Shown here: positions 22,244 through 30,101 of the stretch, piece after piece
Numbering within the stretch: position 1 is the stretch's first letter
Layout: the number at the start of each line of letters is the position of its first letter
Assembly (NCBI RefSeq): GCF_032852305.1
Contig: NZ_CP136594.1
Location: 1,153,501 to 1,217,500 of the forward strand
Length of the DNA stretch: 64,000 nt
Reading direction: 5' to 3'
DNA from: Parasphingorhabdus sp. SCSIO 66989
GTDB taxonomy: Bacteria > Pseudomonadota > Alphaproteobacteria > Sphingomonadales > Sphingomonadaceae
Program-made: the position numbers and the translations under genes
The notes under the pieces: model-generated
Told to the model about the DNA's origin: nothing
The model's database searches: none
Seen by the model: the letters and a program-made list of their open reading frames with translations, nothing else

Positions 22244-23215
22244 TCACGCCCCCGGCACCGAAAGTGCCGCCGCCGCTTCGCGCACTTTGCGCAGTTTGTC
22301 GCCATCATTGCGGAAGGCAGTGCTCGCATCCTGCAGGGCCTTGGCGGCTTTGCCGGTTTCGCCCAGCTGCATACGGCTGCGCATCAGCATGATCCAGCCA
22401 TCAGGATTGTCGGGATTGGCGGCCAGCTTGTCGGCCAGACCATCGACCATGCCCCGGATCATCTCTTCCTGCTGCCCTTGCGGCAAGGCAGAAGCAGCCT
22501 GCATCTGGTCGCGACTAGGTCCGGGAATCGCCGATGAAGCGACCGCTACACCATCGGTTTTCAGGCCGCCTGTAGGTGGTGCAAATTGCGTGCTGGCCAG
22601 CCGCTGTTCGACTTCTATGCCGCGCTCTTTACCGACATTGCGGATCACATTGCGCACGTCTTCCGCCCATGGCGCATCTGCCGGTGTATCGGCGAGCAGC
22701 GCGAACCAGCTATTGATCGCTGCTTCATGCTGACCGTCCATATCCATGGCTGCAGCCTGAAAATAGCGCGCGCGCGGGTCTTTCGGGTCAAGCTCCAGCG
22801 CCCGGTTAAAAGCGGCGCGGGCATCGGCGGGGATGGCACCTGCATCACTTGCCAGCACCAAAGCCTCGCCCAGCATCGAATGATATTCGGCATTGTCCGG
22901 GTCGAGATTGGTGGCGCGCTTCATCGCAGTGGCGGCTTCGGCAAAACGCGAGGTTTCAAAGAAGGACCAGCCGAGCATGCGCCAGCCTTCGGCATCATCC
23001 GGGTTTTCCTGCAGCTTCTTTTCCAGCGCCGCGATAACCTCGCCCACCGGCGGGGCCTGCTCGCTGCTATTCGCGGCTATCGGCGCTGTATTGGTGTCAC
23101 TGCTATCGGGCCGAAACACGGCTATACCCACTGCCGCCAGCGCGATGACTCCCGCACCCACCATGATCCAGCGGCTGATATTGGTGCCTTTGTCCTGCTC
23201 CGTATCTTCGCTCAT
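22244..23215 (-). CDS. TPR protein resembling the C-terminal part of CcmI/NrfG
   Basis: The 323-residue protein has one membrane helix near the N terminus (WIMVGAGVIALAAVGIAVF) and a periplasmic TPR region (GWRMLGWSFFETSRFAEAA, NAEYHSMLGEALVLASD, DPKDPRARYFQAAAMD). This matches the TPR module of cytochrome c maturation proteins CcmI/NrfG, which present apocytochrome c. It is divergent from an operon encoding a decaheme cytochrome. ATG 23215 follows GAGGGAC; an in-frame upstream start would add 17 residues without support. The exact role is an inference from fold and context. Confidence 0.7.
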   Translation of the reverse strand: MSEDTEQDKGTNISRWIMVGAGVIALAAVGIAVFRPDSSDTNTAPIAANSSEQAPPVGEVIAALEKKLQENPDDAEGWRMLGWSFFETSRFAEAATAMKRATNLDPDNAEYHSMLGEALVLASDAGAIPADARAAFNRALELDPKDPRARYFQAAAMDMDGQHEAAINSWFALLADTPADAPWAEDVRNVIRNVGKERGIEVEQRLASTQFAPPTGGLKTDGVAVASSAIPGPSRDQMQAASALPQGQQEEMIRGMVDGLADKLAANPDNPDGWIMLMRSRMQLGETGKAAKALQDASTAFRNDGDKLRKVREAAAALSVPGA

Positions 23216-23509
23216 ACGTCCATGTCCCTCATATGCTGCGATATGGCACAATCGTGGCTGCCGCAACCATATGCAGGCTAAAACGCCAAAAGCCGCCCAG
23301 AACCATTAAGCACAGAATTTGCCAAAAGCCTGTGGCAATCATCACAGATATTGCGTAAAGTCTCTGGCAGGGTTCGCGAAAATATGCGGCAATCAAGGCC
23401 GTAGCTGCGCATTTCGGCGCGTGACGCGACAGAGTGAGGGCAAGCGATAGCCTATCGCCACCTCGCATTTTTCTCGCGAAACACGTCGGCTTTTGGGGGA
23501 AGCGGACCG
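23216..23509. other. Divergent intergenic region
   Basis: This 294-base spacer must hold the promoters of the TPR gene (minus) and the redox operon (plus). The clearest element is the CRP-like palindrome at 23331-23346. The ribosome binding site GGGGGAAG precedes the GTG at 23510. No gene is visible. Confidence 0.5.
23331..23346. promoter_or_regulatory. CRP-like binding site
   Basis: TGTGGCAATCATCACA matches the CRP/FNR-family consensus TGTGA-N6-TCACA in nine of ten defined positions. It lies 164 bases before the start of an oxidoreductase that itself has two cyclic-nucleotide domains and in whose operon a cyclic-nucleotide phosphodiesterase lies. A CRP-type regulator binding here is an inference; alphaproteobacteria use several CRP/FNR proteins with similar sites. 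Confidence 0.5.
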
Positions 23510-26044
23510 GTGAGCGAGACGTTCAAGGTAGCGATAATCGGATCAGGGCCAGCGGGCATGAGCGCGGCGGGTCGTGCGGCGGAACTGGGCCTGTCCCATG
23601 TGTTGCTGGAAAAGACCGACCACCTTTCAGATACCATCTATAAATATCAAAAGGGCAAGCATGTGATGGCGACGCCATCGCAGCTTATCCTGCGCTCCGA
23701 CATGGATTTCGACGCGGGTAAGCGTGAGGCTATACTCGGCACATGGAATGACCAAACCGAGGCGCTTAAGGTCAATGTGAAATATAATGCCGAGGTCAAG
23801 GCGATCAAAGGTACCGGCCCGGCCATTTCGGGCAGCGTGCATGTCATCGAAATCCGCAAGCGCGATGGCACCAAAGAGACCAAAGAAGTCCAGCGTCATG
23901 AGCCGCCTTATGAGCTGACGCTCACCAATGGCGAGACGATTATCGCGGAAAATGTCGTGCTGGCCATCGGTACCCAAGGCAACCCCAATCGCATGCGCTG
24001 CGAAGGGGCCGACCTGCCGCATGTGCAATATCAGTTGGATGACCCGACCGAATATATTGACGAGCATATCGTTATTGTTGGTACCGGGGATGCGGGGATT
24101 GAGAATGCGCGTGGCCTTGCTGAAGACCCGGCGCAGCGCAATACCGTCAGCATTCTCAACCGCAAGGTTGATTTCGCCACCGCAAAGGACGCCAATGTCA
24201 AGGCGCTGCAGGCCGACCACGAGGCGGGCAAACTGACGATACGGCTGGAGACTGAGACGGCGAAGATTGAAGAAGGTTTCATTGCTCTCAACACCCGTGA
24301 TGGCGAGGAGCGTATTCCATGCAATCGCGTGATTGCCCGCATCGGCTCGGCACCGCCGCGCATGTTCGTCGAGGAATGTGGTATCGCTTTTACCGGCCCG
24401 GACCGGACGGCTTTTCCCGAATTGTCGCCGGTTTTTGAGTCGACCGCGCCCAATATCTTCGTCATCGGCGCGCTGGCGGGCTATCCGCTGATCAAGCACT
24501 GTATGAATCAGGGCCATGATGTTATCGAATTCATCAACGGCAATACCGAGCTGAAACCGGCAGATGAGCCGATCCTCGAAGCCAAATTTTCCGATCTGCC
24601 AGGCAATAACAGCGTTGCCGAATGGCTCGAATTTCTGCGCGCCAATGTCCGCATATTGAATGGCCTCAACCCACTGCAGATGCGCGAGTTTATGCTCGAC
24701 AGCGATGCGAAATATTATCGCAAGGGCGAGGTGATTTTTGAACGCAATGCGCCGGGGTCATCGCTGTTCGCCATTGCCGATGGCTCGGTGGCGGTGCAGG
24801 TCGATCCCGATGATCCGCGCATCACGGTGCCGATTGAGAGCGGCTCGATCTTTGGTGAGGTTGGCCTGATCTCCGGGCGCAAACGCGGTGCCACGATTAC
24901 CGCCGCCGAGGACACTATCTGTGTCGAGATTTCGCGGCTGGCAGCGCTCAAACTGCAATCGCAATCCGAGGCGGCCAAACAGCGCATTGAGCGTATTTCA
25001 ACAGAGCGACAATTGCTGCAGATGTTCGGCTCGGGCCTGACGTCGGAAGACATCGAAGAGGCTGTCGAGACCAGCGAGATACTGTCGGTTCGCGCTGGAG
25101 AGTCGATCATCACCGAGGGCGATGAGGGCAATGACATCTACGTCATCCGCGTCGGCTCGATGGTGGTGGAGAAGATGATTGGCGGCAAGCCGGTGTTCCT
25201 CTCCTATCTGCCCGCCGGCTCCTATGTCGGTGAGATGGCGCTGATCGCCGGTGGTCAGCGCACCGCGACAGTAAAGGCGGCGATCAAATCGGAAGTCATC
25301 AAGATCAACGGTGATGCTTTTGCCAAGGTGCTGGCTGAGCATCCTGAGCTGATGGCCAAGGCCAAGCGCGATATGGCTTCGCGGCAGGATATCAATGCCT
25401 TTGTCGAGGCCAAGAAGGACAGCTTTTCGGGCGTTGTCGATATGTATTCCGAGGTTGCCAGCTTCCTCGTCGATCAGGGCATTGGCGAGGCGACCGATGT
25501 GCTGCTGATCGATGAAAATCTCTGTATAGGCTGCGATAACTGCGAAAAAGCCTGTGCCGACAGCCATGAGGGGTTGTCGCGGCTCGACCGTGAGGCGGGC
25601 AAGACCTATGCGCATCTGCACGTGCCGACCAGCTGCCGCCATTGCGAGCATCCGCATTGCATGGCTGACTGCCCGCCCAATGCCATCCATCGTGGTCCCG
25701 ACGGTGAGGTCTTTATTGATGATACCTGTATCGGCTGCGGCAATTGCCAGCGCAACTGCCCCTATGGCGTGATCCGCATGGACAAGGTGCCGCCGAAAAA
25801 GCCCAATCTGCTGAGCTGGCTGTTTCTTGGCTGGGGGCCGGGTCCGGGCGAGCCGGACAAAGGCTGGGCCAATGAGAATAGCGATCCGGATGTCGAGAAA
25901 CCGAAAAAGGCGATCAAATGCGATATGTGCGCCGGGATCAATGGTGGGCCAGCCTGTGTCCGTGCCTGCCCCACCGGGGCGGCGATCCGGGTTGCTCCCG
26001 ATGAGTTTCTGACCGTCGCGCGGTTTGAAGGGGAGGATGCGTGA
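23510..26044 (+). CDS. Fused FAD/NAD(P) reductase, two cNMP-binding domains, four-cluster ferredoxin
   Basis: An 844-residue soluble protein. Residues ~1-340 are a thioredoxin-reductase-like flavoprotein with AIIGSGPAGMSAAGRA (FAD) and IVIVGTGDAGIENARG (NAD(P)H), but without the redox CxxC of true thioredoxin reductases. Residues ~390-500 and ~503-625 are two cyclic-nucleotide-binding domains; the phosphate-binding cassettes read FGEVGLISGRKRGAT and GEMALIAGGQRTATV, each keeping the key Glu and Arg. From residue 672, four Cys groups follow (CIGCDNCEKAC, CRHCEHPHCMADC, CIGCGNCQRNC, and CDMC with CVRAC), as in DmsB/NrfC-type subunits with four [4Fe-4S] clusters. I infer electron flow from NAD(P)H through FAD and Fe-S to the membrane partner downstream, gated by cAMP or cGMP. 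GTG 23510 follows GGGGGAAG. I know no characterised member. Confidence 0.88.
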   Translation: MSETFKVAIIGSGPAGMSAAGRAAELGLSHVLLEKTDHLSDTIYKYQKGKHVMATPSQLILRSDMDFDAGKREAILGTWNDQTEALKVNVKYNAEVKAIKGTGPAISGSVHVIEIRKRDGTKETKEVQRHEPPYELTLTNGETIIAENVVLAIGTQGNPNRMRCEGADLPHVQYQLDDPTEYIDEHIVIVGTGDAGIENARGLAEDPAQRNTVSILNRKVDFATAKDANVKALQADHEAGKLTIRLETETAKIEEGFIALNTRDGEERIPCNRVIARIGSAPPRMFVEECGIAFTGPDRTAFPELSPVFESTAPNIFVIGALAGYPLIKHCMNQGHDVIEFINGNTELKPADEPILEAKFSDLPGNNSVAEWLEFLRANVRILNGLNPLQMREFMLDSDAKYYRKGEVIFERNAPGSSLFAIADGSVAVQVDPDDPRITVPIESGSIFGEVGLISGRKRGATITAAEDTICVEISRLAALKLQSQSEAAKQRIERISTERQLLQMFGSGLTSEDIEEAVETSEILSVRAGESIITEGDEGNDIYVIRVGSMVVEKMIGGKPVFLSYLPAGSYVGEMALIAGGQRTATVKAAIKSEVIKINGDAFAKVLAEHPELMAKAKRDMASRQDINAFVEAKKDSFSGVVDMYSEVASFLVDQGIGEATDVLLIDENLCIGCDNCEKACADSHEGLSRLDREAGKTYAHLHVPTSCRHCEHPHCMADCPPNAIHRGPDGEVFIDDTCIGCGNCQRNCPYGVIRMDKVPPKKPNLLSWLFLGWGPGPGEPDKGWANENSDPDVEKPKKAIKCDMCAGINGGPACVRACPTGAAIRVAPDEFLTVARFEGEDA

Positions 26045-26067
26045 TGGCCATTTTCCCCCTATCCACC

Positions 26068-26139
26068 CCGTTCGTGTCGAGCGAAGTCGAGACACAATGC
26101 TGCGACTGCCTGTCTCTCGACTACGCTCGAGACGAACGG
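26068..26139. repeat. Palindromic repeat family A inside the redox operon
   Basis: A 72-bp element with CCGTTCG/CGAACGG ends and inner GAGCGAAGTCGAGACA and TCTCGACTACGCTCGAGA arms. It lies between the flavoprotein and the membrane-protein genes, leaving a 121-base gap in an otherwise tight operon. A hairpin here could set the ratio of soluble to membrane components. Confidence 0.85.
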
Positions 26140-26165
26140 AGCATGTTTGCCGGGGGACAAATCTA

Positions 26166-27053
26166 ATGGCCAGTGCAGCCAAACCCGCCGGGGCCACCCA
26201 TGGGTCACGCAGACGCCAGAGTCAGCATGTCGGTTTTCTCGGGCATAATGGCTTCAAATGGCTCAAGATTGCGGTGTTTCTGTCACTGGTCTGTCTGGTC
26301 AGCTATTTCCTGATCGATGTCGAGCCGCGGCATAATGGCGGTAGCTGGTATGGCTATACGCTAGGTACAATCGGCGCGCTGCTGATCCTGTGGTTGACCA
26401 TGCTGGGCTTACGCAAAAGGACGATGACGCCGGGCGGTTGGTCTTTAAAAGCGTGGACCAGCGCGCATGTCTATCTCGGCCTGTCGCTAATCGTGATTGG
26501 CACGCTACACACCGGTTTTCAGCTTGGTTGGAATGTCCATACACTTGCTTGGGCGCTGATGATGATTGTCATCATATCCGGCATTTTCGGCATCTATGCT
26601 TATGCGACGCTGCCGCAATCGCTGTCGAATAACCGAGATGAAATGACCGAGACGCAGATGATCGAGGCGCTGCGCTCTCTGGATCGACAATTGCATGATG
26701 CGGCGCAGCCTTTGGAGCCAGAACAAGCTGCCTTGGTGCAATCATCGCTCGAACAGGATCCCTTTGCCGGCGGCCTGATCCAGCGACTGAGCAATAGCTA
26801 TCCCGGCTGCGCTACCCGCAAGGCACAGGCCGAATTGCGCCGATCACGCGCCTATCAGCCGCGTATGGGCGATGATCCGCTCGACAAGATCGACAATCTG
26901 CTCGAGCGCAAGGAGGCGACATTGGCGCGGGTGCGGCGGCATTTGCAGATCAAGGGCCTGTTGCAGATATGGCTTTATGTTCATGTGCCGATGACCTTCG
27001 CGCTGCTCGCGGCGCTGTCGGCACATATTGTCAGCGTGTTTTTCTACTGGTGA
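26166..27053 (+). CDS. Di-heme cytochrome b-like membrane protein
   Basis: The 295-residue protein has five hydrophobic segments (about residues 32-51, 65-84, 100-118, 124-150 and 266-292) and a cytoplasm-like charged insert between the fourth and fifth. The third segment contains HVYLGLSLIVIGTLH and the fifth HVPMTFALLAALSAH; both have two His 14 residues apart, the spacing that binds two b hemes between a pair of helices. This strongly suggests a transmembrane two-heme wire. I chose ATG 26166, after GGGGAC and beyond the palindromic repeat; the open frame further upstream is only the repeat. No named family recognised. Confidence 0.8.
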   Translation: MASAAKPAGATHGSRRRQSQHVGFLGHNGFKWLKIAVFLSLVCLVSYFLIDVEPRHNGGSWYGYTLGTIGALLILWLTMLGLRKRTMTPGGWSLKAWTSAHVYLGLSLIVIGTLHTGFQLGWNVHTLAWALMMIVIISGIFGIYAYATLPQSLSNNRDEMTETQMIEALRSLDRQLHDAAQPLEPEQAALVQSSLEQDPFAGGLIQRLSNSYPGCATRKAQAELRRSRAYQPRMGDDPLDKIDNLLERKEATLARVRRHLQIKGLLQIWLYVHVPMTFALLAALSAHIVSVFFYW

Positions 27054-27069
27054 GGCGGGGGCAGATGTC

Positions 27070-28917
27070 ATGACATTCATCGTCCGCCAGATCGCGCTCA
27101 AGGCTGATGGCAGTGAGATTGTCCGCGAAACCACGCCCGAGGGTGCCGAGATGACCATCGGCCGTAATAGCGATAATGCCATCCATCTACCCGACCTTGC
27201 GGTTAATCCGGTGCATGCGAGCATCCGCCGCAATGGCGACGATAGCATTATTGTGGAAGCGGTTTCCGGCCAGCCATTTCAGGTCGATGGCATTGATGTC
27301 ACGACCGCGACCGTCAAGCTGGCGCGTGGTGCAGAGCTCGGCTTTGGCGGCCATCGCATAGCTGTTGGCCTTGATGCCGATGGCGCAGCGGTAACGCTGA
27401 CGGTCCGCCGCACCGATGCGGTTGCGGATAGCGAGGAAGAGAAGGACGAACGCGAGATTTACTCGCTTATCGGCAAGCTGCCCGGAAAACGCGGCAGTGC
27501 CTGGGGTTTTGTCGCGTTGGTGGTGATCGCCTGTCTCGCCTGGCCGGTCTATACCTGGGCGACCTATCGCGACCTTGCCTATAATGAAGATGTGAAACGC
27601 CCCGATGGCGTGCATGGCGACGGCTTTTGGAGTTCAGGCAGCCTGAGTCTCGCGCATAACAGCCTCAAAGATGACTGTCAGGCCTGCCATGTCGATGCTT
27701 TTGTCTCGGTCCGCGACAAGGCGTGCATGACCTGTCATGATGATGATGCGCATGATCATGCACCCAAACCGCGTCTCGCCAGTGCGCGCGGAGAGCTGCA
27801 GGGCTTTGCCGCCTTTCGCCGCGCGGTGGCCAGCGCGTTCAACAAACCGCAGGGCAGGTGTGTGGAATGTCACACCGAACATGAGAGCGCAGGTGCTATG
27901 CAACCCACTGTGCAGCGATTCTGTGCTGAATGTCACGATGGACTGGATAGCAGGCTGACCGATACGACGCTCCTCAATGCCGCCGATTTCGGCAAGGCGC
28001 ATCCGCAGTTCCGCCCGGCGGTGCTGATCAATGCGGTGGAGGGCGATGACCCGGAGAAGGCACCAAGGCGGCGTATCTCGCTGGACCGCAAGCCGAGCGA
28101 GGATAATGGCCTCAAATTCCCGCATGACCTGCATCTCGATCGGACCGGCGGTGTCGCGCAAATGGGGCGGCGACTGTCTGCAAAATATGGCTTTGGCGAT
28201 GCGCTGGATTGTGCCGATTGCCATACGCCCGATCCCAATGGCGTGCGCTTTGAGCCAGTCGATATGGAAGAGAATTGTGCCATGTGCCACAGCCTTTCCT
28301 ATGACGAGATTGATGGCACTTTCCGCCAGTTGCCACATGGCAAGCCCGATCTGGTGAAGGCTGATCTGCGCGCCTATTACCGCTCAACCGGGCCGAACCG
28401 CCCGATCAATCTTGGAAGCTTACCGCGCCAGCGCCCAGGGACCGTCAACCGCCAGCGCACCGCAGCGGATTATGCCCGTGCGGTGCGTTTCCGCCCGACC
28501 CGTGCCAATCAGGCGATCCGCGCGGTCTTCTCCGAGGGCGGGGCCTGTTATGATTGTCACAGCGTCAATGCGCTGGGTGGATTGAACTACAGTATCGACC
28601 CGGTGACGCAGACTGACCGCTATATGCACAAAGGCTGGTTCAGCCATGCCGCGCATGAAGAAGAGGATTGCACCGATTGCCATAAGGCAACCACATCAAA
28701 ACAGGCGACCGATCTGTTGCTGCCGGGCATTGCGACGTGTCGCGAATGCCATGGCGGTGAGGCGTCGGACACCGATGTGCCCTCGACATGTGCGCTCTGT
28801 CATGAATATCATGCTGATGGCGGCGCGCCCTGGCTGGTGCGTCAGCAGAATAAGGACAAACAGCGCCGCGAGAAGCGCAAACAATCGGAAAAGCCGAAGA
28901 TCGTGGCGCGGCGGTGA
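27070..28917 (+). CDS. FHA-domain decaheme cytochrome c
   Basis: A 615-residue bitopic protein. Residues ~1-100 form a forkhead-associated domain (MTIGRNSDNAIHLPDLAV) whose usual SxxH becomes NPVH, so phosphothreonine binding may be lost. A linker leads to one membrane helix (WGFVALVVIACLAWPVYTW, about residues 145-165). The rest is periplasmic with ten CxxCH motifs: CQACH, CMTCH, CVECH, CAECH, CADCH, CAMCH, CYDCH, CTDCH, CRECH and CALCH. Many extra His can serve as distal ligands. It starts 16 bases after the di-heme protein and likely takes electrons from it to an unknown acceptor. ATG 27070 follows a GGGGGC stretch. The tail is very basic. Confidence 0.9.
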   Translation: MTFIVRQIALKADGSEIVRETTPEGAEMTIGRNSDNAIHLPDLAVNPVHASIRRNGDDSIIVEAVSGQPFQVDGIDVTTATVKLARGAELGFGGHRIAVGLDADGAAVTLTVRRTDAVADSEEEKDEREIYSLIGKLPGKRGSAWGFVALVVIACLAWPVYTWATYRDLAYNEDVKRPDGVHGDGFWSSGSLSLAHNSLKDDCQACHVDAFVSVRDKACMTCHDDDAHDHAPKPRLASARGELQGFAAFRRAVASAFNKPQGRCVECHTEHESAGAMQPTVQRFCAECHDGLDSRLTDTTLLNAADFGKAHPQFRPAVLINAVEGDDPEKAPRRRISLDRKPSEDNGLKFPHDLHLDRTGGVAQMGRRLSAKYGFGDALDCADCHTPDPNGVRFEPVDMEENCAMCHSLSYDEIDGTFRQLPHGKPDLVKADLRAYYRSTGPNRPINLGSLPRQRPGTVNRQRTAADYARAVRFRPTRANQAIRAVFSEGGACYDCHSVNALGGLNYSIDPVTQTDRYMHKGWFSHAAHEEEDCTDCHKATTSKQATDLLLPGIATCRECHGGEASDTDVPSTCALCHEYHADGGAPWLVRQQNKDKQRREKRKQSEKPKIVARR

Positions 28918-28963
28918 TCCGCTATCGAGACGCATATAGGATGGGCCTGATAGGGAGGGTGAT

Positions 28964-29830
28964 ATGTCATCACAGCAGATGCTGATCGCACAGGTCACCG
29001 ATATTCATCTCGGCTTTGACCCGGATAATCCGGCCGAATTCAACCGCAAACGGCTAGACCGCATCATCGAGGACATGCTGTCGCTCGACACCCCACCGGA
29101 TATGCTATTGGCGACAGGTGATTTGATCGACCGTGGCGATGCCGAAAGCTATCGCCGTCTCGCCAATGCTTTTTCGGTCTGCCCGTTTCCGGTGCTTATG
29201 GCGCTGGGCAATCATGACATGCGCGCTACCTATATTGCCGAATTTCCCGATCCGCCTTTCGACAATGGCTTTCTGCAATATGTTGTCGATGCGGGTCCAT
29301 TGCGGCTTATCGTGCTTGATACGCTGGAGGAAGGCCGCCATGGCGGCGCGTTTTGCGAGGCGCGCGCAAACTGGCTCAAGGCGCGGCTGGATGAGGACAG
29401 CGAAACGCCGACAGTGATCGTCCAGCATCATCCGCCTGTCGAAGTCGGCATTGCCTGGATGAACACCCATCCGGAAGAACCATGGGTGGCGCGGCTGGGC
29501 GAATGTCTCGAAGGCCGCACCAACATCGTCGCCATGCTGTGCGGTCATGTCCATCGCACCATCCAATCCTCCTGGCGCGGCATCCCCATCGCCGTTTGCC
29601 CTTCCAGCGCGCCACAGGTGGCACTGAACCTGTCCGACATCGATCCCGAGGCCCCTGATGGTCGCGATATGATTATCGCCGATCCGCCTGCCTATGCCCT
29701 GCACTGGTGGAATGGCCGCCAGCTGGTCAGCCATATCCAAACCGCCGAAGAGCATGTCATGCTGGCGCGCTATGATGAGAAGATGCAGCCATTGGTGCGC
29801 AGCCTGCTGGCCGAAAGACCGACGGAGTAA
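28964..29830 (+). CDS. cpdA: CpdA-like metallophosphoesterase (probable cyclic-nucleotide phosphodiesterase)
   Basis: The 288-residue protein carries the calcineurin-type motifs in order: TDIHLG (DxH), GDLIDRGD, GNHDM, QHHPP and CGHVH, which bind two metal ions. Overall it reads like class III 3',5'-cAMP phosphodiesterases (CpdA, Icc). The gene follows the decaheme gene by 46 bases on the same strand with AGGGAGGG before the start. Since the first gene of the operon binds two cyclic nucleotides, local signal turnover is a sensible role. Related enzymes can hydrolyse other phosphodiesters, so the substrate is not certain. Confidence 0.82.
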   Translation: MSSQQMLIAQVTDIHLGFDPDNPAEFNRKRLDRIIEDMLSLDTPPDMLLATGDLIDRGDAESYRRLANAFSVCPFPVLMALGNHDMRATYIAEFPDPPFDNGFLQYVVDAGPLRLIVLDTLEEGRHGGAFCEARANWLKARLDEDSETPTVIVQHHPPVEVGIAWMNTHPEEPWVARLGECLEGRTNIVAMLCGHVHRTIQSSWRGIPIAVCPSSAPQVALNLSDIDPEAPDGRDMIIADPPAYALHWWNGRQLVSHIQTAEEHVMLARYDEKMQPLVRSLLAERPTE

Positions 29831-29875
29831 GCGCGCTTTATCAGCCGGTTGCGATCAGTTTTCACGTTCCTCAAT

Positions 29876-29958
29876 CGTCATTGCGAGGAGCGAAGCGACG
29901 CGGCAATCCAGAGCAGGTGCGTGTTGCACTGGATTGCTTCGCTACGCTCGCAATGACG
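29876..29958. repeat. Palindromic repeat family B, copy 1
   Basis: Starts CGTCATTGCGAGGAGCGAAG and ends GCTACGCTCGCAATGACG, two inverted arms around a central CAATCCAGAG/TGGATTG pair. This REP-like family is widespread in bacteria. It separates the redox operon from the M3 peptidase gene and can act as a bidirectional hairpin. Other copies: 50023-50106 and 60227-60317. Confidence 0.85.
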
Positions 29959-30101
29959 AGAAAAAAGTGATCGAATCGACCAATGGCATAGAGCTTTCGA
30001 CTGGCAGAGCTATGGGCTTTGCTTTACCAGTATTTAGCGATTACACCTCGCTCCATACAACCTCCGCACCAGACCGTGCGGCGGCATGGGGAGAGACGAA
30101 A

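Follow-up and report, generated by a model that had tools for sequence, protein, structure and literature searches.

Cyclic-nucleotide-binding domains in a conserved bacterial gene set: a putative trans-envelope electron conduit

The locus and its genes

The window analysed here is a 64,000-nucleotide stretch of the genome of Parasphingorhabdus sp. SCSIO 66989 (assembly GCF_032852305.1, contig NZ_CP136594.1, positions 1,153,501 to 1,217,500 of the forward strand). Between positions 23510 and 29830 of this window lie four genes on the forward strand, which we term A, B, C and D. A preliminary description made from the sequence alone had reported these four open reading frames as one redox operon, and we find that this observation holds.

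Gene A (23510-26044, +) begins with a GTG start codon and encodes 844 residues, with three parts recognised by Pfam: an FAD/NAD(P) reductase domain (Pyr_redox_2/3; 23522-24514, residues 5-335; Pyr_redox_2 81.6 bits), two tandem cyclic-nucleotide-binding domains (cNMP_binding, PF00027, matched in two stretches with 117.2 bits against a cut-off of 27.5; 24677-25342, about residues 390-480, a boundary that is approximate, and 526-611), and a four-cluster ferredoxin domain (Fer4 families; 25505-26002, residues 666-831) with 16 cysteines in four cluster motifs. The Gly, Glu and Arg of the binding cassettes are residues 449/450/459 and 574/575/584, and the profile of A matches the regulatory regions of cAMP- and cGMP-dependent protein kinases across both domains. 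The nearest NCBIfam model for the FAD domain is the bacillithiol disulphide reductase YpdA, which it does not reach (104.7 bits against a cut-off of 339.9), and we read the domain as an electron-entry module; the ferredoxin domain matches four-cluster ferredoxins of the AegA/YgfT and DmsB/HydN type (73.5 bits over the AegA region), but A is far below their cut-offs. The A-B intergenic stretch (26045-26165) holds one copy of a dispersed repeat of about 75 bp.

Gene B (26166-27053, +; 295 residues) has a start set by alignment, the mechanical ORF starting earlier, and encodes a membrane protein with five predicted membrane helices that is a candidate di-heme b cytochrome. Two pairs of histidines, each with 13 residues between them, are candidate heme ligands: H101/H115 in helix 3 (26466-26510) and H273/H287 in helix 5 (26982-27026), within predicted helical segments 94-116 and 238-294. 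No Pfam family exceeds its cut-off: only PF01292 (Ni_hydr_CYTB; E=0.013, 15.7 of 30.1 bits) and PF00120 (E=0.51) are listed at E<=1, with no ferric-reductase match, and there is no NCBIfam match at E<=1. Nor did structural comparison yield a relative of known function. Foldseek returned no match at E<=0.001 (best E=0.096, to an F-BAR domain), VIA listed sensor helical bundles first (Z 11.7) with cytochrome b561 and STEAP4 at Z 7.4, which is inside the noise stated for the method and does not stand above generic helical bundles, and a profile search of the PDB gave three matches (best E=0.076), none relevant; we therefore make no fold claim. A search of viral contigs gave no match to B.

Gene C (27070-28917, +; 615 residues) combines an FHA domain (PF00498; 27154-27348; 26.8 bits, cut-off 20.7), one hydrophobic segment near residues 142-165 (27493-27564), and ten CXXCH heme motifs (27676-28803, residues 203-578). 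The segment, read as a single transmembrane helix, is preceded by net basic residues, from which we infer that the N-terminus is cytoplasmic and the hemes periplasmic. C also matches PF22113, the MtrC/MtrF domain (35.5 bits, cut-off 30), alongside several other multiheme families.

Gene D (28964-29830, +; 288 residues) is a calcineurin-like phosphoesterase (Metallophos, 63.0 bits, cut-off 21.5), with metal-ligand motifs that are invariant in the 20 sequences aligned. The preliminary description had called it CpdA-like, which requires correction: D scores best with SpdA, a 2',3'-cyclic nucleotide phosphodiesterase (139.8 bits, cut-off 400), ahead of the 3',5'-cAMP phosphodiesterase CpdA (87.7 bits, cut-off 225), and is below both cut-offs. 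A scan for promoters and terminators found 5 and 6 sites against 4.0 and 5.2 expected, on which we base no claim.

Conservation of the gene set

Rare adjacency of the redox genes had been set beforehand as grounds for rejecting the system, and it is not what we observe. Among 98 genomes of the family searched, A-B-C is contiguous in 21 of the 21 that have C, and D follows in 20 of these 21. In the best 80 of 582 confirmed relatives, all named loci, A is seen in 79, C in 78 and D in 74, with each miss at a contig end. At the level of the class, B was found in 50 of 385 genomes (37 strong and 13 weak matches), and at the level of the phylum in 50 of 398 (30 at E<=2.5e-17 and 20 weaker, several only fragments). 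The surroundings of 40 of the class hits were examined (beyond the three from the same family, already included; the others were left out), together with 20 stretches from the phylum hits. A lies beside B in 36 of the 40 class-level loci, but not in the remaining 4 nor in 5 of the 20 further loci, so B works without a neighbouring A in some lineages; in two genomes A and B are fused into one protein of 1120-1125 residues. Chance adjacency is thereby rejected. Loci are mostly 10-21 kb long, such that absence of a neighbour means absence within that stretch, and where we called genes ourselves these are ORF calls made without a gene finder.

The candidate ligands are conserved. The four histidines of B are invariant in 81 of 81 loci, although these were chosen by a B match (or, in the family, by C) and some conservation is thus expected. 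Full-length A (matches over 700 bits) keeps its 16 Fe-S cysteines and the Gly, Glu and Arg of both cyclic-nucleotide cassettes in 54 of 54 sequences, and C keeps all 30 heme-motif residues in 57 of 57, a count limited to profile scores over 100 bits that leaves out distant decahemes without FHA. In the same 57 sequences the FHA domain keeps its Gly-Arg (Arg in 57 of 57) but has the usual phosphate-site Ser in only 4, by the column of this alignment, lacking it in 53, and the window's own genome has no Pkinase (PF00069) match at E<=0.001.

A further 18 loci, counted apart, have an A without its reductase domain (judged by profile coverage and length, and checked with Pfam in one of them only). 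Of these, 16 encode an unrelated NADH-type reductase, an FNR-type FAD/NAD/2Fe-2S protein, against 0 of the other 42 of the 60 loci tested. Only 12 of the 18 reductase-less A proteins show a cyclic-nucleotide-binding cassette recognisable by pattern, so nucleotide control may not be universal. The window's own genome has two PF00211 matches, to class III cyclases.

A second operon with a predicted outer-membrane barrel

The preliminary description had left the terminal partner of the chain unidentified. We find a candidate in a second, separate operon of four genes: E (a decaheme protein with a propeller), F (a predicted outer-membrane barrel), G (HbpS-like) and H (a tetraheme protein). In the same 98 genomes, C occurs in 21, E in 22 and F in 22: 21 genomes have all three, one (67% complete) has E and F only, and 76 have none (Fisher p=1.7e-20, not corrected for shared ancestry). 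Across the class, F occurs in 28 of 372 genomes, and all 28 are among the 37 with strong B matches, although the two class searches (385 and 372 genomes) did not draw the same set. In the window's own genome E-F-G-H lies about 1.55 Mb from A-B-C, and E was seen within the locus in only 17 of the 80 named loci.

F is modelled as an 18-strand protein whose best PDB match is AlgE (E=4.6e-17), in a model with a mean pLDDT of 69.7 and a disordered N-terminus, and F ends in Tyr/Phe in 35 of 35 sequences. E carries ten CXXCH motifs in 27 of 27 and H four in 9 of 9, incomplete E, F, G and H at locus ends being left out of these counts, and hydrophobic N-termini were recognised by eye. In two loci E, F, G and H are adjacent. 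The operon shows the marks of a trans-outer-membrane porin-cytochrome conduit, in that a predicted barrel is encoded together with multiheme c cytochromes whose export is inferred. E gave a match below cut-off to the MtrC/MtrF domain PF22113 (21.8 of 30 bits). Some distant loci carry an unrelated pentaheme/barrel pair (P and Q) instead, and none of 60 loci shows both modules within the stretch examined.

Comparison with described systems

Porin-cytochrome conduits (MtrCAB/PCC) likewise encode a beta-barrel with multiheme c cytochromes that carry electrons across the outer membrane, fed from an inner-membrane cytochrome. Here F models closest to AlgE, and the inner module seems to take NAD(P)H directly instead of quinol and carries cyclic-nucleotide domains. 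The Geobacter extHIJKLMNOPQS selenite/tellurite cluster (PMC5877670) holds a porin, 12-, 10-, 5- and 4-heme cytochromes and an inner-membrane b cytochrome, and E shares about 50 residues with ExtM, but at 60.9 bits against an equivalog cut-off of 800. The inner module of that cluster is described as a Rieske protein and a bc-type cytochrome b, whereas the one here is A-B-C, with no Rieske or bc-type match among the Pfam families listed for A-D; no NAD(P)H reductase is listed in the description consulted, and the term cyclic nucleotide does not occur in the main text.

NOX/ferric reductases and cytochrome b561 proteins place two stacked b hemes across one membrane on His pairs spaced by 13 or so, fed in NOX from NADPH and FAD. 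B has two such His pairs on two helices, but its FAD partner has a disulphide-reductase-type fold plus four Fe-S clusters, and it is followed by a decaheme c cytochrome. Cyclic-nucleotide domains and a membrane partner of this kind are not known to be part of the AegA/YgfT and DmsB/HydN families.

A published system of this composition had also been set beforehand as grounds for rejection, and none was found in the open-access literature searched. Literature searches combining cyclic-nucleotide-binding and FHA domains with multiheme cytochromes and ferredoxins, FHA domains with decahemes, multiheme cytochromes of Novosphingobium with cyclic nucleotides, or cyclic-nucleotide-binding domains with ferredoxin, cytochrome c3 and electron transfer returned no papers, and neither PMC5877670 nor PMC11976967 nor PMC10654088 was seen to describe the gene set, although only open-access papers were covered and a description elsewhere is not excluded.

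Discussion

We propose, with a probability of roughly 0.6, that these genes encode an NAD(P)H-driven trans-envelope electron conduit with built-in cyclic-nucleotide control. In this view A would take electrons from NAD(P)H on FAD in the cytoplasm and pass them to its four [4Fe-4S] clusters, with the two tandem cyclic-nucleotide domains between reductase and ferredoxin acting as a ligand-operated switch; the ferredoxin would hand them to B, whose two stacked b hemes (H101/H273 inner, H115/H287 outer) would carry them across the inner membrane; the membrane-anchored decaheme C would take them into the periplasm; and a tetraheme c554-like carrier (H) and the outer-membrane barrel with its decaheme/propeller protein (F and E; in some lineages the unrelated pair Q and P) would deliver them to or beyond the outer membrane. 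What the sequences themselves establish is the gene content, its conservation, the topology signals, the genetic linkage and the co-occurrence of the two modules, while the binding of heme and of cAMP or cGMP, the gating, the outward direction, the order A-B-C-H-F/E, the export of E and the final acceptor (perhaps an extracellular oxidant, with E as a possible terminal reductase) are inferred without biochemical evidence.

The interpretation given in the preliminary description is partly supported. Its proposal that the three redox genes form one system, with electrons moving from NAD(P)H through FAD and Fe-S to b hemes and c hemes, is supported by gene order, by the A-B fusion and by the replacement of the reductase domain, and B has a di-heme-type ligand set. 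Its proposal that cAMP/cGMP binding sets the rate rests only on conserved binding residues. Its proposal that D closes the loop as a phosphodiesterase is weak: besides its closer match to SpdA than to CpdA, no D match lay beside the core in 40 of 40 class-level loci outside the family (a few of these being short contigs), nor in one of the 21 family loci. We therefore reject D as a core subunit and regard it as an optional accessory of the family-level loci. A phosphothreonine-reading role for the FHA domain, given its missing Ser and the absence of a Pkinase match, is doubtful.

Of the alternatives, the one that survives best, though still less likely than not, is that the wiring is the same but feeds one specific envelope reductase (E, or P) acting on a soluble substrate in the periplasm or at the surface (for example an oxyanion, a nitrogen or sulfur compound, heme or a peroxide), rather than a general extracellular electron exporter. 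E is unusually conserved (70-74% identity to the Parasphingorhabdus copy in 22 of 22 aligned relatives), with many invariant non-heme residues, which looks like an enzyme, and the short similarity to ExtM and the HbpS-like G are in keeping with this. By contrast, the unrelated P and Q module with the same core suits a general electron supply, and no catalytic family was recognised in E or in the one P tested. It is unlikely, but not excluded, that the cyclic-nucleotide and FHA domains are structural (dimerisation, assembly) and bind no ligand, leaving an unregulated redox chain: the FHA domain and the 6 of 18 reductase-less A proteins without a recognisable cassette point this way, whereas the conserved cassettes of full-length A, the resemblance to kinase regulatory regions and the two cyclases point against it. 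Reverse flow, with extracellular or periplasmic electrons entering through E/F/C/B to reduce NAD(P)+ or balance redox under cyclic-nucleotide control, is improbable; multiheme conduits can run both ways and direction cannot be read from sequence, but an NAD(P)H-type reductase stands at the inner end, no energy-coupling subunit was noticed, and uphill transfer to NAD+ from typical c hemes would need a driving force that is not evident here. Least likely is a redox sensor that carries little current and reports envelope redox state to the cyclic-nucleotide or FHA module, for although signalling-type domains sit on both A and C and D is a phosphoesterase, no DNA-binding, cyclase or kinase output domain is seen in A or C, a ten-heme and barrel module is costly for a sensor, and co-occurrence with E and F is near complete.

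A bolder reading, which we hold to be possible but somewhat short of even odds, is that of a widespread and unnamed class of trans-envelope electron exporters in which a second messenger directly gates electron flow: cAMP or cGMP binding to tandem domains inside the electron-carrying polypeptide would open an NAD(P)H-to-cell-surface wire that bypasses the quinone pool and is plugged into at least two unrelated outer-membrane cytochrome/barrel modules. This would make sphingomonads and other alphaproteobacteria regulated extracellular electron donors. The outer-membrane conduits known to us draw on the quinol pool, and none is known to have a second-messenger domain in the electron path; here a conserved core links NAD(P)H, by inference, to multiheme cytochromes, and all 21 family genomes with the core also have an outer-membrane cytochrome/barrel module, in a group of environmental bacteria not known for extracellular electron transfer. 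If confirmed, the system gives a genetically simple, switchable electron exporter, a function for proteins largely annotated as hypothetical in public plasmid records, and a direct test of whether cyclic nucleotides can gate redox chemistry allosterically.

Organization of the locus

Four co-directional genes occupy positions 23510-29830, as the preliminary description had stated, and that observation holds. Gene A (23510-26044) combines a Pyr_redox FAD/NAD(P) module, two cNMP_binding domains and a ferredoxin with four cluster motifs; gene B (26166-27053) encodes a membrane protein without a Pfam family over cut-off; gene C (27070-28917) encodes an FHA domain, one hydrophobic segment and ten CXXCH motifs; and gene D (28964-29830) encodes a calcineurin-like phosphoesterase, whose best NCBIfam models, SpdA followed by CpdA, are both missed by a wide margin. 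The spacer between A and B (26045-26165) holds a copy of a dispersed repeat of about 75 bp (about 26065-26141); a search of the own genome gave 70 matches, many of them the same place on both strands, so that the element is palindrome-like. Just after D, at 29875-29959, lies an inverted repeat (13-nt arms, 100% complementary, with a second inner pair), which reads as a spurious ORF extension. Upstream, the divergent gene (22244-23266, minus strand) encodes a CcmH/CycH-type TPR protein (cytochrome c biogenesis); an ORF antisense to it was seen upstream of the operon in 14 of 21 family loci, and a TPR gene is found there in Sphingobium herbicidovorans. Downstream are genes for an M3 peptidase and an alpha/beta hydrolase.

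Conservation and phylogenetic distribution

Of 98 genomes searched with C (including the own genome), 21 have it, and in all 21 the genes A, B and C are contiguous in one direction, mostly with short or overlapping junctions, with D following in 20. A scan of named genomes with the B alignment gave 582 confirmed relatives, of which the best 80 were kept; 77 of these carry Sphingomonadales names and three only broader labels. In these 80 loci A is found in 79, C in 78 and D in 74, and each miss sits at a contig end. In 12 Sphingobium replicons of the plasmid collection the A and B genes are mostly annotated as hypothetical, and in S. herbicidovorans the set reads "cyclic nucleotide-binding domain-containing", "hypothetical", "cytochrome c3 family" and "metallophosphoesterase".

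A class-wide sample revealed B in 50 of 385 genomes (37 strongly and 13 weakly), and a phylum-wide sample in 50 of 398 (30 at E<=2.5e-17 and 20 weaker, several of these only fragments). Among the 40 class-level loci that were retrieved, A lies beside B in 36 and a C match is present in 39: A is missing in the loci L088, L091, L095 and L102, and locus L109 has a ten-CXXCH ORF beside B instead of a C match. In 20 further loci A is beside B in 15. In two genomes of another class (loci L230 and L231) A and B are one continuous polypeptide of 1120-1125 aa, which is direct evidence that they work together. By contrast, L088 and L091 (and L095) have B and C, and an outer-membrane module, but no A beside them, and another electron donor to B may be used there. 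In L102 and in three of the further loci (L245, L246 and L249), distant B-like membrane genes stand next to cytochromes with 19 to 27 CXXCH motifs in about 550-800 aa, without a full A beside them, possibly a third kind of wiring of the same candidate di-heme membrane module.

Conserved ligand residues and predicted topology

Across loci at down to about 18% identity, the four candidate heme-ligand histidines of B are invariant in 81 of 81, while two other histidines vary (H21 is present in 50 and H125 in 57 of 81). Full-length A keeps all 16 Fe-S cysteines, and the Gly, Glu and Arg of both cyclic-nucleotide cassettes, in 54 of 54, and C keeps all thirty heme-motif residues in 57 of 57. The AlphaFold model of B has five membrane-type helices (mean pLDDT 87.0). 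Basic residues sit in the N-terminus and in the loop between helices 2 and 3 (4 each, against 1 and 0 in the other two short loops), which puts the N-terminus inside; helices 3 and 5 would then run in the same direction, and we infer that H101/H273 and H115/H287 form two levels, as in di-heme cytochromes. Fold searches do not assign B to a known family.

Proposed electron entry

A second type of locus has A without its reductase domain (cyclic-nucleotide domains plus ferredoxin only), as judged by profile coverage and length in 18 loci, and by Pfam in the class-level locus L111. Of these 18 loci, 16 carry an unrelated FNR-type reductase (FAD_binding_6, NAD_binding_1 and Fer2 in L111), the two without being L106 and L240, whereas none of the other 42 of the 60 loci examined has it. 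The replacement of one NAD(P)H reductase by another of different fold is the strongest sequence evidence for NAD(P)H as the donor side. The C of L111 shows no FHA match and the other distant C matches begin after the FHA part of the profile, so that FHA is optional.

A co-occurring, predicted outer-membrane module

In S. herbicidovorans the operon is next to a second one, encoding a cytochrome c family protein (H), an HbpS-like protein (G), a hypothetical protein (F) and a large multiheme protein (E). There the core and outer-membrane operons (loci L192 and L193) lie together on pMSHV, a replicon typed as conjugative by PLSDB, so the whole conduit may be mobile. The own genome has E-F-G-H side by side at C1:2733724-2743274, about 1.55 Mb from the A-B-C operon. 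E has ten CXXCH motifs in 27 of 27 complete copies, and LVIVD propeller repeats in both copies examined for them. F ends with Tyr or Phe in 35 of 35, is modelled with 18 strands (mean pLDDT 69.7, the barrel part higher), and matches the outer-membrane exporter AlgE at E=4.6e-17. H has four CXXCH motifs in 9 of 9. G (L196:13899-15890, minus strand, in a locus where E, F, G and H are adjacent, and relatives) is an HbpS-like protein (heme-degrading/GlcG type) with several matched stretches, in the own copy with a lipoprotein-like start, and stands next to F in the loci where both were seen.

E and F were each found in 22 of the same 98 genomes: all 21 genomes with C have both, one genome with 67% completeness has E and F without C, and 76 have none (Fisher p=1.7e-20, not corrected for ancestry). 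Class-wide, F was found in 28 of 372 genomes, all among the 37 with a strong B match. Of two genomes assigned to the same genus (G016 and G420), one has B and F and the other has neither, so gain and loss happens within a genus. Physical linkage is looser, as E lies within the locus in 17 of the 80 named loci. Among the 29 class-level loci L072-L100, 22 carry G, F or E, four carry instead an unrelated pentaheme (P) and barrel-like (Q) pair, and three carry neither (one of these is a 4.8 kb contig); 7 of the 11 loci L101-L111 carry P or Q. P and Q show no meaningful similarity to E and F, and no locus of the 60 shows both modules within the stretch retrieved. Q is called barrel-like only from its sequence character and from the aromatic C-terminus of the four sequences inspected.

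Proposed mechanism

The simplest account is that electrons would pass from NAD(P)H to FAD and four Fe-S clusters (A), to two b hemes (B), to ten c hemes (C), to a periplasmic tetraheme (H), and finally to an outer-membrane cytochrome/barrel module (E/F or P/Q). What the sequences themselves establish is the content, conservation, linkage and co-occurrence of these genes, whereas heme and nucleotide binding, the switch, and delivery to an acceptor outside the cell are inferred, as is the direction of flow, from the donor chemistry. The inference of a switch rests on the tandem cyclic-nucleotide domains, which lie between the reductase and ferredoxin of A, have intact cassettes and match regulatory regions of cAMP- and cGMP-dependent protein kinases, and on the two class III cyclases encoded in the genome. 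As regards the final acceptor, the strong conservation of E and the short stretch it shares with Geobacter ExtM leave open that E is itself a reductase.

The interpretation offered in the preliminary description, in which cAMP/cGMP binding sets the rate of a redox chain and a phosphodiesterase closes the loop, is only partly supported. D was seen beside the core only at the family level, and its scores against SpdA and CpdA do not assign it a substrate. The FHA domain of C, whose role as a phospho-reader is weakly supported, keeps Gly-Arg in 57 of 57 but has Ser at the usual place in only 4 of 57 by this alignment; the genome has no Pkinase match, although 11 of 14 control genomes do, and this FHA is the only FHA match in the genome at E<=0.001.

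Comparison with known systems

In this view the system would work like a porin-cytochrome extracellular conduit, its outer module having both a predicted barrel and multiheme cytochromes, although homology to MtrCAB has not been shown. With respect to the Geobacter ext system, whose inner module is described as a Rieske protein plus cytochrome b (PMC5877670), E does not qualify as an ExtM and no Rieske or bc-type match was found among the family matches of A-D. We found no published description of this gene set in the open-access literature searched. What is new relative to these conduits is the inner module, which is linked to NAD(P)H and bears cyclic-nucleotide-binding domains.
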